In this document: one piece after another, positions 8,781-64,000 of the stretch | Position numbering within the stretch: position 1 is the stretch's first letter | Layout: each line of letters opens with the position of its first letter | From: Pseudomonadota bacterium | GTDB taxonomy: Bacteria > Pseudomonadota > Alphaproteobacteria > GCA-2746255 | Direction of reading: 5' to 3' | Assembly (NCBI GenBank): GCA_040752895.1 | Contig: JBFMHN010000003.1 | Location: 281,501 to 345,500, forward strand | Length of the DNA: 64,000 bases | Notes under the pieces: model-generated | Databases searched by the model: none | The model's input: only the letters and a program-made list of their open reading frames with translations | Told to the model about the DNA's origin: nothing | Translations under genes and position numbers: made by a program

Positions 8781-9662
8781 GTGCAGATGCCTTTCGCGGC
8801 CCCCCATATTTCTCCGGATACGGCAGCGTCCGAGTCGGCCGAACGGATCGCAACCCGTTCCGGCACCTCGTTTTTCTGGGCGATGCGGCTTCTTTCGAAG
8901 TCACGCCGGGAAGGGATGTTCGCCATCTATGCCTTCTGCCGGGAGGTGGACGATCTCGCCGACGACTCCCTGCCGCGGGCGGAGAAGATCGAGGCTCTCG
9001 GCAAGTGGCGCGCGCAGATCGAAAGACTTTACGCCGATGGAAAAAGCGCGGGCTTGAGCTTGACGGCCCGCGCGCTGGCCGAACCGATCCGTTCGTTTGG
9101 CCTTCGCAAGGAGGATTTTCTCGCCGTCATCGACGGAATGGAGATGGACGCGAACGGCCCCGTCCGAAGACCTTCGATGAAGGAGCTGGAGCTTTACTGC
9201 GCCCGCGTGGCGGGTGCGGTGGGGCGGCTTTCCGTCCATGCGTTTGGCGCGCCGGGCGCCAAAGGCTATGCCGTCGCCGACAAGCTTGGCCAGGCGTTGC
9301 AGCTTACGAATATCCTTCGGGACCTTCGCGAGGACGCCGGGGAAGGCCGCCTCTACCTGCCGGCCGAGCTTCTGGAAAAACATGGCATTATCGGGTGCGA
9401 ACCAGGCAAGGTGCTTGCGCACCCCGCCTTGCCCGCGGTCTGCGAGGATCTTGCCCGGCTTGCCGAGCGCCGCTTTCGGGAGGCGGAAGCGGCTCTTGCC
9501 GAATGTTCCCGCCGGCAGATGCGCCCAGCTGTCGTCATGATGCGGGTTTACCGGAAGCTCCTTGAAGGCCTGCGGGCAAGGGGATGGAAGGATCTGGATC
9601 GTTCGGTCGGCCTTTCGAAGGTGGAGAAGATCTGGATCGCCTTGCGCCACGGAATCTTTTAG
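8781..9662 (+). CDS. hpnD: Presqualene diphosphate synthase HpnD
   Basis: Condenses two farnesyl diphosphates head-to-head to presqualene diphosphate, the first committed step to hopanoids. It is a squalene/phytoene synthase family member of ~293 residues, with a first Asp motif DDLADD after CREV near residue 55 and a second LRDLREDAGEGR near residue 178, followed by the LYLPAELL segment usual in HpnD. GTG at 8781 or ATG two codons later at 8787 are both possible starts. It lies between hpnC and hpnE, three bases from the latter, in the hopanoid operon. Confidence 0.95.
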   Translation: MQMPFAAPHISPDTAASESAERIATRSGTSFFWAMRLLSKSRREGMFAIYAFCREVDDLADDSLPRAEKIEALGKWRAQIERLYADGKSAGLSLTARALAEPIRSFGLRKEDFLAVIDGMEMDANGPVRRPSMKELELYCARVAGAVGRLSVHAFGAPGAKGYAVADKLGQALQLTNILRDLREDAGEGRLYLPAELLEKHGIIGCEPGKVLAHPALPAVCEDLARLAERRFREAEAALAECSRRQMRPAVVMMRVYRKLLEGLRARGWKDLDRSVGLSKVEKIWIALRHGIF

Positions 9663-59862: not shown

Positions 59863-61527
59863 TTACAGCGCCTCGAGGAGCGGGGCGAGGTGGTGCTCGT
59901 AATGCCGCCATCGCCTTACGGCCGCCGTGTCGATCGGCCGGCGGACGCGGGCGATGCTTGCCGCATGCACGGGCCGCTTCGTTTTGAAGAAGGTGAGGCA
60001 GGCGTCTTCCCACGGCAGCTTGCAGAAATCGAGAATCCGGCGTGTCGTTCCCTCCTGATCGGCGACGAGGTCCTCGTAAGGGATGTCCAGAATCCGCCCC
60101 GGCAGCATGGCGCGCCAGTGGTGCATCAGCCGCTCGTATCGCCGGTAGTAACGTCCAAGTTCGGCCAAATCGTCGCTGCAATTCGGCGTTTCCGCGAAAT
60201 AGGTCTTGAAGCAGGAAAGACAGGTATCGATCGGGTTGCGCGCGCAATGAAGGATGGTCGCCTGGGGAAGGGCGAGATGGATGAGGCCGATATATTGAAA
60301 ATTGCTCGCCAGGCTGTCCGTGATTCGCGCGGCGCCCGGCGCGCGTGCGCCGACCGTCTCGACATACGCCCGGCCGAGCCTTTCAAAAGCGTTGGCGTCG
60401 AGCCCGGCGGCCGCTTCGGGAAAGCCCGTCGCCGGCCCCGGTCCGTTTGGAATCTTGCGAACCTGTTCCGGGAAGGTATCTAGCGCGCCACCGCCGAAAA
60501 CGGCCGGGTGGCTGGCCAGGATTTGCTCGACCAAGCTTATACCGGAACGCGGCATGCCGAGAACGAAGATCGGTTGCTCGCTGGCGAAGCCGTGGCCCGC
60601 CTTCTCGGTCAGGAGCCGCTTGTTGAAGATTGCCGGGATGCGCTCGAACCTCTCTTCGTCCGCCGCGGTACCGTGCGGGGCCGACTCGCGCTTCAGTTGG
60701 TTCGCTTTCTCGAAGCAGTCGAAGGCGAGGTCGTACTTGCCGGTATCCTCATGGGCCTTGCCCAGAGCGAAGCGAAGAAGGGTTGCTTCTTTCTTCGGCA
60801 GGGAAGGGTTCGCAAGGGCACGCTCCATCGCGTGGATTGCTCCGTCGCCTTCCCGGAACGTCGTCAGGCGCGAAAGTGCGAGATGGGCGCGGGCGTCCTC
60901 CGGCCGGGTTTTCACAATTTGCCGGAAACCGGCCTCGGCCTTCTCGATCTCGCCGAGTTCCAGCAAGGTGGCGGCAAGGTTGGTTCGCGCCTCGACGAAA
61001 TCGGGTCGGCGTTCAAGCGCGGCCTCATACGCTGCGACCGCTTCCCCGCAGCGGCCGGCGCGCATCAGGGCGAGGCCAAGGTTGTAGTGGGCACCGGCGT
61101 TTTCCGGTCGCTTCGCGAGGAAGGTCCGGTAGACAGCGGCCGCCTCGTCAAGCCGCCCGAGCAGCAGGAGGGTATTTCCGAGATTGAGGTTGGAGTCGAT
61201 GTCCTCGGGCGCCAGCGTGAGCACGCGTCGGTAGGCGTCAGCGGCCGCCTCGTATTTTCCGAGCCGATGGAGAACGGCGCCGAGGTTGAAAAGCGTATCC
61301 ACCGCGTCCGGGGTTTGCGCGAGCGCCTTCTCGAAGCAGGTGATTGCTTCCACGCTCGCGCCCTTTTGCTGGCACAGTGCGCCGAGGAGGTGAAGAAGTT
61401 CCGCGTCCTTCGATTGCCGCTCTAGAAGTTCACGGTAGATCGCCTCCGCCTCGGCCAGCTTTCCTTCCCGATGCAGGCGAAGGGCGTCCTCGCGAGAAGG
61501 GCCGGTTGAAGTATGCATGCTATCCAC
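59863..61527 (-). CDS. TPR-repeat sulfotransferase
   Basis: 554-residue two-part protein. Residues ~10-285 hold about seven tetratricopeptide repeats (for example GKYEAAADAYRRVLTLAPED, residues 90-109), which usually bind protein partners. Residues ~318-554 form a PAPS-type sulfotransferase: the 5'-phosphosulfate loop is VLGMPRSGISLVEQILASHP at 322-341 and a 3'-phosphate site with CARNPIDTCLSCF follows. Such fusions are common in alphaproteobacteria and planctomycetes, acceptors unknown. It is the first gene after tRNA-Leu, reading toward it, and sits 24 bases downstream of the LysR gene. Confidence 0.88.
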   Translation of the reverse strand: MDSMHTSTGPSREDALRLHREGKLAEAEAIYRELLERQSKDAELLHLLGALCQQKGASVEAITCFEKALAQTPDAVDTLFNLGAVLHRLGKYEAAADAYRRVLTLAPEDIDSNLNLGNTLLLLGRLDEAAAVYRTFLAKRPENAGAHYNLGLALMRAGRCGEAVAAYEAALERRPDFVEARTNLAATLLELGEIEKAEAGFRQIVKTRPEDARAHLALSRLTTFREGDGAIHAMERALANPSLPKKEATLLRFALGKAHEDTGKYDLAFDCFEKANQLKRESAPHGTAADEERFERIPAIFNKRLLTEKAGHGFASEQPIFVLGMPRSGISLVEQILASHPAVFGGGALDTFPEQVRKIPNGPGPATGFPEAAAGLDANAFERLGRAYVETVGARAPGAARITDSLASNFQYIGLIHLALPQATILHCARNPIDTCLSCFKTYFAETPNCSDDLAELGRYYRRYERLMHHWRAMLPGRILDIPYEDLVADQEGTTRRILDFCKLPWEDACLTFFKTKRPVHAASIARVRRPIDTAAVRRWRHYEHHLAPLLEAL

Positions 61528-61551: not shown

Positions 61552-62442
61552 CTATAAACCCGATTCGCGGACTTCGCCGATCAGAAAATCCCAGAACGCT
61601 TGAATGCGTCTCGAATCGCGCAGTTTCTCCGGATAAACGAGATAGGCTTTGAAGGCCGGGCCCTCGATTTCGGGAAGAACCCGCACGATGTCCGGGTCTC
61701 CGGCGGCCATGTAATCGGAAAGCCCTCCGATTCCGACGCCGCTTTTCATCGCCAAGAACAAGCTGTTTGCGTGATTCACCTTCAAGGCGACCGCCGGATG
61801 GTTGAAATCGATATCGGCAACGTCCAATAGGAAGTTCAAATTGCCTTGAATGGCCGGATAGTCCTGATTGTAGAGGATTAGCCTGTGATTTTTTAAGTCG
61901 CGCGCATTTTTCGGGGCGCCGTATTGTTGCAGGTACCCACGCGAAGCATAAAGATGTACGCGAAGCGTCGTCAGATGGCGCTGGATAACGTTTGCCTGGC
62001 GGGGGGGCGATATTCGGATGGCGGCGTCCGCTTCCCGCACGCTTAGGTCCGAATCGTAACTCTGAACGGTCAAGCTGACCTTGATGTTCGGGTTTTGATC
62101 CAAGAACTTCTTCAACCGCGGCGCCAGCCAAACGGTGCCGAAGGTGATGGTGGAGAGAATCCGCAACGGCCCTTCCGGTATTTGCTTGCGGTGGTTGAGC
62201 GTTGCTTCGGTAAAGGCCAAGGCGTCGTCCATCTGCCGCGTTGTTTCATAGAGAAGTTTTCCCGGTTCGGTGAGGGCGACGCCGTGGAATAGGCGGTGGA
62301 ACAAAGGCGTGTTGAGGTCCCGTTCGAGCAGGCGAACGTGCCGGCTGACCGAGGATTGGCTCAAGCCCAGCCGTTCGCCGGCAAGGGTCAGGTTTCCTGC
62401 TTGGGCAACCGCATGAAAGATGCGCAAACGGTCCCAGTTCAT
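61552..62442 (-). CDS. LysR-family transcriptional regulator
   Basis: LTTR of ~296 residues. Winged helix-turn-helix at the N terminus (MNWDRLRIFHAVAQAGNLT, then LGLSQSSVSRHVRLLE), followed by a periplasmic-binding-like effector domain. I chose the ATG at 62442 because the family begins just there; an upstream ATG at 62535 would add 31 unconserved residues. It is divergent from the MmoX-like gene across 463 bases, the usual LysR geometry, so control of the monooxygenase genes is possible. sMMO operons known to me use MmoR/MmoG and sigma54 instead. Confidence 0.88.
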   Translation of the reverse strand: MNWDRLRIFHAVAQAGNLTLAGERLGLSQSSVSRHVRLLERDLNTPLFHRLFHGVALTEPGKLLYETTRQMDDALAFTEATLNHRKQIPEGPLRILSTITFGTVWLAPRLKKFLDQNPNIKVSLTVQSYDSDLSVREADAAIRISPPRQANVIQRHLTTLRVHLYASRGYLQQYGAPKNARDLKNHRLILYNQDYPAIQGNLNFLLDVADIDFNHPAVALKVNHANSLFLAMKSGVGIGGLSDYMAAGDPDIVRVLPEIEGPAFKAYLVYPEKLRDSRRIQAFWDFLIGEVRESGL

Positions 62443-62760
62443 GACGGGCTTGGGTTTGGACAATCCGGCCGCCTTTCCGTTTCGACGCTGGAGGCAATTT
62501 ATAGGATTCTGATGCCGGCTATCGAATTTTTGCATGAGCTTTTATCTAAAAAATGCGTTAGTACGGGAACTGGGCCATGCATTCATTGCAGAATAAGGCA
62601 TTCGCAGGTTTTTGGCGCCAGATTTAGGAAAAAATACCTGCTTTGAACAGAGGCATCGTTCGTCCTTGTATGGCGGATCCTAAGGATCGGATTTGCGAAC
62701 AGATCGGAGAGGGGTACCGCGGGCGGTGCTCGCGGCGGCGGTGGAGTGCTAACTTTTTGA

Positions 62761-62905: not shown

Positions 62906-64000
62906 ATGGTTGCGGTCCCGAAAATCGAGGTCAAGTCGCAAGAGGTACATAAGTATCTCATGGAGTTTGGCTGGAACATCGACAAACGTCGGGGTAAGTA
63001 TCCGACAAAATACAATTACAACCCTTCCGCGCGCGAGCAGTTTAAGCTGATCGCGAAAGAATACTGCCGCATGGAAGAGGAGAAGGACGAGCGCCAATAC
63101 AGCACCCTCCTCGATGGCATGGCGCGGATGAACGTCGGCAGCCGTATCGAGCCGCGCTGGAACGAAGTTATGAAAATTGGCGGCGACTTACTGGAGTCCG
63201 GTGAATACGCGGCGATCTCCGGCACCTCCGTTCTCTGGAATGCGACACAAAGCCCTGAGCTTAAAAACGGCTATCTCGCCCAGACGATGGACGAAATCCG
63301 GCACACGGCCCAGATCGGCTATTTGAACTCCTATATGGCGAAGCATACCTACGATCCGGCGGGCCATGCGGACGCCCGGCGCGTGCGCTACATGAATCCG
63401 CTATGGCGGCCTTGCCGCCGCGCCCTCGTCGACGGATTCTGCGCCGGCGATCCGGTCGAATGTTCACTGAACCTGCAGATGGTTGCCGAGGCGTGCTTCA
63501 CGAATCCCCTGATCGTCGGTTTGACGGAATGGGCGGCGGCGAACGGCGACGAGGTGACGCCGACCATTTTTCTCAGCATCGAGACGGACGAATTGCGCCA
63601 TATGGCGAACGGCTACCAGACAATCGTCTCGATCATTCACGATCAGGAAAACCACAAATACATTCAGACGGACCTGGATAATACGTTCTGGTTGCAGAAC
63701 AAGTTCATCACGCCGTTCGTCGGCGCGGTCCTCGAATATGGCTCCGTCAACAAGGTCGAGCCTTGGGCGGTCACCTGGGATCGCTGGGTGTATCAGGACT
63801 GGGCCTCCATGTGGCTGGGCCGTCTTGCGAAATTCGGCATCAAGACGCCACGGAGCATGCTGGAGGCGAAGACGGAAGCCTACTGGTCTCACCACGCGGC
63901 TTGGCAGGTCGCCACGGCGCTGTGGCCGCTCATGATGATCCGCATCGAACCGCCGACCGAGAAGGACGCGGCATGGTTCGAGAAGAATTATCCGGGCTGG
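62906..64000 (+). CDS. mmoX: Soluble methane monooxygenase-like hydroxylase alpha subunit (partial, 3' end outside window)
   Basis: Catalytic subunit of a soluble di-iron monooxygenase of the sMMO group; inserts oxygen from O2 into a hydrocarbon. 365 codons are visible of ~527 expected. By alignment with Methylococcus MmoX as I remember it (offset 14), all six iron ligands are kept: E100, E130, H133, E195, E229 and H232, in GEYAAI, DEIRH, AEACFTNP and DELRH. The dioxygen-related Thr213 equivalent (T199) and the gate Leu110 equivalent (L96) are kept too. But Cys151 is Ile137, Phe188 is Leu174 and Phe282 is Ile268. GGAGG at 62893-62897 sets the ATG at 62906. Membership in this group is very firm; whether methane is the substrate is not. 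Confidence 0.93.
   Translation, partial: MVAVPKIEVKSQEVHKYLMEFGWNIDKRRGKYPTKYNYNPSAREQFKLIAKEYCRMEEEKDERQYSTLLDGMARMNVGSRIEPRWNEVMKIGGDLLESGEYAAISGTSVLWNATQSPELKNGYLAQTMDEIRHTAQIGYLNSYMAKHTYDPAGHADARRVRYMNPLWRPCRRALVDGFCAGDPVECSLNLQMVAEACFTNPLIVGLTEWAAANGDEVTPTIFLSIETDELRHMANGYQTIVSIIHDQENHKYIQTDLDNTFWLQNKFITPFVGAVLEYGSVNKVEPWAVTWDRWVYQDWASMWLGRLAKFGIKTPRSMLEAKTEAYWSHHAAWQVATALWPLMMIRIEPPTEKDAAWFEKNYPGW

Follow-up and report, generated by a model that had tools for sequence, protein, structure and literature searches.

A group 3 SDIMO outside the sMMO clade in an alphaproteobacterial genus, with a candidate gamma subunit fused to tandem EthD modules

At the right-hand edge of a 64,000-nucleotide stretch of alphaproteobacterial DNA (hereafter the window; G000:C3:281501-345500) lies a gene resembling mmoX, which encodes the alpha subunit of soluble methane monooxygenase (sMMO), and the question raised by this locus is whether its product is a methane monooxygenase or another type of enzyme within group 3 of the SDIMO family. 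The window's genome (G000; 2.29 Mb in 28 contigs) was compared with the congeners G001, G002 and G003, each genome-wide statement of presence or absence resulting from a single family search. The two genes at the edge are as follows:

61552..62535, minus strand: gene for a LysR-type regulator, oriented divergently to the alpha gene (ORF list)
62906..64000, plus strand: SDIMO group 3 alpha subunit, MmoX/SmoX-like (ORF, phmmer, alignment); whole gene L005:4407-5972

The alpha reading frame is open up to the window edge, the first 365 of its 521 residues lie inside, and contig C3 extends about 9.9 kb past this point. A first-pass annotation, made from the letters alone, had described the visible 365 residues as closely similar to MmoX, and this was borne out by phmmer, in which residues 8-514 of the protein matched residues 22-526 of M. 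capsulatus MmoX (1FYZ) with an E value of 1.5e-200. Among the PDB sequences, the top solved-structure matches were MmoX of Methylococcus and Methylosinus. The active-site region aligns ungapped with MmoX at an offset of -14, so that the residue numbering of the first-pass annotation is correct. As had been proposed, all six Fe ligands (E114, E144, H147, E209, E243 and H246 in MmoX numbering) as well as Thr213 (T199 in the window enzyme) are kept, and the alignment places Ile137, Leu174 and Ile268 at Cys151, Phe188 and Phe282 of MmoX. Further changes were found at Met184 (Cys170), Gly208 (Ala194), V285 (F), L286 (V) and L289 (V); E240, L110, G113 and N214 are unchanged. The alpha gene recurs in two congeneric genomes, at 86% and 91% identity and likewise encoding Ile at position 151, which is therefore no sequencing error. 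A chance match or a frameshift was excluded by the E value (1e-200) and by this conservation, and an in-frame TGA in the alpha gene of G003 proved to be the ordinary stop codon ending an ORF of 515 aa. PMC12917321 names C151, M184 and F282 of MmoX as residues that matter for methane oxidation, with P424, G443, P461 and Y464 contacting gamma; all four contact residues are conserved in the window alpha. The YHS-like C-terminal domain bears four cysteines (C404, C407, C436 and C440), shared by almost every other SDIMO alpha in the comparison and lost from the two MmoX sequences.

The first-pass annotation had regarded Cys151 as a hallmark of sMMO. Cys151 marks canonical sMMO, but not the whole sMMO-like group, as the plasmid-borne group 3-like enzymes of actinobacteria, which are the nearest named relatives of the window alpha, carry Thr (Mycolicibacterium chubuense NBB4 SmoX) or Val (Rhodococcus WAY2 and ZPP) at this position. 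A beta-branched residue is therefore normal outside sMMO, and the contrast to Cys151 is weaker than it had appeared. In a maximum-likelihood tree of 15 alphas (two sMMO sequences and no BmoX among them), sMMO, the group 3-like enzymes and the window genus formed a group 3 clade (100/100) apart from groups 4, 5 and 6, and within it three separate branches were obtained for sMMO (100/100), the group 3-like enzymes (97/99) and the window genus (100/100). The canonical sMMO clade, represented by only two sequences in this tree, thus excludes the window genus. The alpha identity is approximately 55-57% to group 3-like enzymes (NBB4 SmoX 57%, Rhodococcus WAY2/ZPP 56%) and 53-54% to MmoX, and the window alpha is about as distant from both as these two are from each other.

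Trees and identities support the window enzyme as a probable third deep lineage of group 3 beside sMMO and the group 3-like enzymes, which agrees with the separate branch with a reshaped pocket that had been suggested before; Ile does align at position 151, and the placement is outside the sMMO clade. The branching order is less clear. The alpha tree leans to sMMO as the sister of the window genus (75/79), the beta and concatenated data weakly lean to the group 3-like enzymes (supports 52-80), and no alternative order was rejected. Membership in the BMO clade, or in a proteobacterial arm of the group 3-like enzymes, is in our view unlikely: sistership with the latter survives the AU test (p-AU 0.196, alpha), is weakly favored by the beta-containing trees (bootstrap 64-74) and would match the X-Y-B-C gene order shared with NBB4, but the low identities to both sides and the group 3-like enzymes forming a supported clade of their own speak against it. 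BmoX is clearly nearer to MmoX than the window alpha is, which was counted against the BMO reading. Group 6 SDIMOs (SmoABCD/PrmABCD of M. dioxanotrophicus PH-06 and Rhodococcus ZPP) share the four-gene order of alpha, beta, coupling protein and reductase, but their alpha is only 41% identical, carries Glu at position 151 and belongs to a separate clade. A search of genome contigs returned as related alphas only OFTM260 (91%) and a distant aromatic type; for 385 + 399 genomes, the matches listed were all of the same class and added no group 3 alpha from beyond the genus, and the viral contigs searched held none.

This probable third lineage of group 3 comes with a gene cluster that continues beyond the window in the order alpha, beta, MmoB, reductase, YCF48, RND and porin, and the same order is found in G003:

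L005:6091-7248, outside the window: beta subunit
L005:7282-7740, outside the window: MmoB-like protein
L005:7875-8909, outside the window: MmoC-like reductase
L005:9371-10486, outside the window: YCF48/BNR protein
L005:10506-13067, outside the window: RND/MMPL transporter
L005:13461-15197, outside the window: DUF1302 outer-membrane protein (porin)

Of the sMMO genes for which the first-pass annotation had proposed to inspect the DNA to the right, those for beta, the MmoB-like protein and the MmoC-like reductase were located, whereas neither mmoZ nor mmoD is part of the cluster. Beta and MmoB are about 41-42% identical to sMMO (beta 41%, MmoB 42%) and 33-39% to group 3-like enzymes. A 109-aa ORF 3' of the reductase gene (L005:9005-9334) was discounted as a gene because it fell into no family and G003 lacks an equivalent. 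On the other side, the LysR gene does not adjoin the cluster in G002 and G003, and a functional link is therefore doubtful. No convincing sigma-54 promoter was found upstream, the best candidate having 4 mismatches. The alpha gene of G002 sits at a contig end. The gene at 59863-61527 of the window, for a TPR protein with what looks like a sulfotransferase-type domain, neighbors the alpha gene in G002 and G003 as well.

An MmoZ-type gamma subunit is nevertheless encoded in the genome, as part of a larger protein:

L036:8771-10012, on another contig (C1): gamma candidate, MmoZ-EthD-EthD, 413 aa (PF02964, PF07110)

This is the one MmoZ homologue in G000 (PF02964 hit on contig C1 at 8795-9253, E 4.4e-31; MmoZ domain in the ORF, E 2.4e-30), and one homologue was likewise detected in G003 on contig C11. 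In both cases the MmoZ part makes up the first 165 residues of a larger protein, 413 aa long in G000 and 417 aa in G003. In either species, the first half of the remainder matches EthD, a module known from ether degradation, with a score exceeding the curated cut-off; the second half scores below this cut-off, and phmmer shows homology between the halves (E about 6e-11). Since the same fusion occurs in a congener at 67% identity, it is old and no assembly error. The single-sequence fold of the fusion protein reached a mean pLDDT of 42, too poor for use. In plasmid records, MmoZ and EthD turned up separately and never as one protein, and among the papers listed in a literature search none had both EthD and mmoZ; we know of no earlier description of a gamma-EthD-EthD fusion. 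Directly upstream of the fusion gene, in G000 as well as in G003, lies a gene for a PPDK_N/PEP-utiliser protein of 835 aa, possibly in one operon with it; in G000 the two genes together span L036:5809-10012.

From these sequences, we infer that the MmoZ-EthD-EthD protein is the gamma subunit of the window enzyme, as no other alpha encoded in the genome would be expected to require a gamma of the MmoZ type. That the fusion protein is not its partner and the hydroxylase works without gamma, like groups 4-6, we consider very unlikely. The location of fusion gene and hydroxylase genes on different contigs in two genomes would fit such an enzyme, but the fusion protein is the only MmoZ homologue found, the gamma-contact residues of alpha are kept, and alpha and gamma occur together in G000 and G003 and are both missing from G001, with G002 (88% complete) having alpha and no detected gamma. 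In NBB4, by contrast, smoZ follows smoC. With the fusion protein as gamma, this subunit of the third-lineage enzyme may have moved out of the operon and been fused to tandem EthD, which would make EthD physically part of a di-iron hydroxylase, perhaps taking over reactive products or delivering substrate; we offer this tentatively, at somewhat less than an even chance.

With regards to the substrate, the pocket was compared with both known lineages of group 3. All Fe ligands, T213, N214, E240, L110 and G113 are shared with sMMO (MmoXYBZDC of Methylococcus and Methylosinus), from which the window enzyme differs by C151I, M184C, F188L, G208A and F282I and by the presence of the YHS cysteines. 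The group 3-like enzymes (SmoXYB1C1Z) resemble it in the kept YHS cysteines, in G208A, in a beta-branched residue instead of Cys at 151 and in the replacement of methane-associated residues, positions 151/184/282 being T/V, T and A there and I, C and I here. However, E240 and L244 of the window alpha match sMMO, unlike the Q and M of group 3-like enzymes, and the pocket is therefore a mixture; F188 is kept in the group 3-like enzymes and is Leu in the window alpha. For the NBB4 SmoXYB1C1Z product, PMC8784404 cites activity towards C2-C4 alkanes and alkenes from Martin et al. 2014, and the same range is given for group 3-like enzymes in 2021 work cited in PMC11057499. By analogy, and with a pocket lacking C151, M184 and F282, the window enzyme most likely oxidizes short-chain (C2+) alkanes or alkenes, in line with the substrates that the first-pass annotation had considered possible. 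The reading as a whole, a complete third-lineage group 3 SDIMO with its gamma provided by the MmoZ-EthD-EthD protein and C2 or larger alkanes/alkenes as likely substrates, is one we consider reasonably probable. Its subunits, catalytic residues and lineage, and the fusion in two species, are read directly from sequence, whereas the substrate range is deduced. It should be noted that sMMO itself oxidizes C2+ substrates and that an enzyme with single changes in its pocket might still accept methane.

Growth on methane is unlikely because of the pocket changes and because Fae was found in none of the four congeners (single family search), although this absence leaves other formaldehyde routes possible. 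A true but divergent methane monooxygenase in a methanotroph could draw on all closest solved structures being MmoX, on beta and MmoB being slightly nearer to sMMO, on the retained E240 and on a PQQ-dependent methanol/ethanol-family dehydrogenase in the genome. However, C151, M184, F282 and G208 are all altered, the cluster is devoid of mmoD, and the dehydrogenase is present in all four congeners, including G001 without the monooxygenase, so that together with the missing Fae we regard this alternative as highly improbable. The genome also holds a full methylmalonyl-CoA mutase, and the metabolic gene set fits C2+ hydrocarbon use better than methanotrophy, which is no proof.

A larger hydrophobic substrate, such as a liquid alkane or a cyclic or branched hydrocarbon moved by the RND transporter, DUF1302 and YCF48 proteins, would fit as well, since these three genes come after the monooxygenase genes in two species, and Phe188 and Phe282 are swapped for smaller side chains. 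The EthD-like protein and a mutase that we take to resemble 2-hydroxyisobutyryl-CoA mutase point in the same direction. Nevertheless, Phe takes the place of V285, so that the pocket has not just been widened, the mutase is also present in G001 without the window enzyme, and nothing links the transporter to substrate uptake. Overall, this alternative appears rather doubtful; the roles considered here for EthD and for the transporter and porin genes are ones we infer.

For the favored C2+ oxidation, electrons from NADH would pass via the MmoC-like reductase to the di-iron center of alpha, which would be gated by the MmoB-like protein, within a hydroxylase that is probably alpha2-beta2-gamma2 with the MmoZ-EthD-EthD protein as gamma. 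The substrate would enter the pocket remodelled relative to sMMO and leave it as an alcohol or epoxide, and an alcohol could then be oxidized further by the PQQ-dependent dehydrogenase that the genome encodes. For the tandem EthD on gamma, we can only guess at a role in retaining a product or substrate or handing it on.

The placement implies that the sMMO-like group is split into three or more deep lineages, only one of which is marked by Cys151, and it puts more sharply the question of what residues in the pocket allow methane to be oxidized. If the fusion is a working gamma, it would be, to our knowledge, the first direct structural link of EthD proteins to a di-iron monooxygenase.

Some observations were made elsewhere in the genome. 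The PQQ alcohol dehydrogenase gene (L063:4287-6803) is followed by a cytochrome c-like gene, and its product has an extra Asp in a 'YDYD' motif, presumably indicating the lanthanide type. The B12-dependent mutase mentioned above (567 aa) is encoded beside genes for a GTPase of the MeaB type and for an acyl-CoA ligase (L064:2959-6499; G000:C1 about 275 kb) and is present in all four congeners; 2-hydroxyisobutyryl-CoA mutase is a key enzyme of tert-butyl and isobutene routes. Two more SDIMO alphas, of the toluene/alkene monooxygenase type, are encoded at L006:7946-9445 (contig C6) and L007:8522-10018 (contig C2). They are 84.5% identical mutually and up to 58% identical to plasmid-borne toluene monooxygenases, and as each lies near a contig end, a duplicated operon split by the assembly is suggested.
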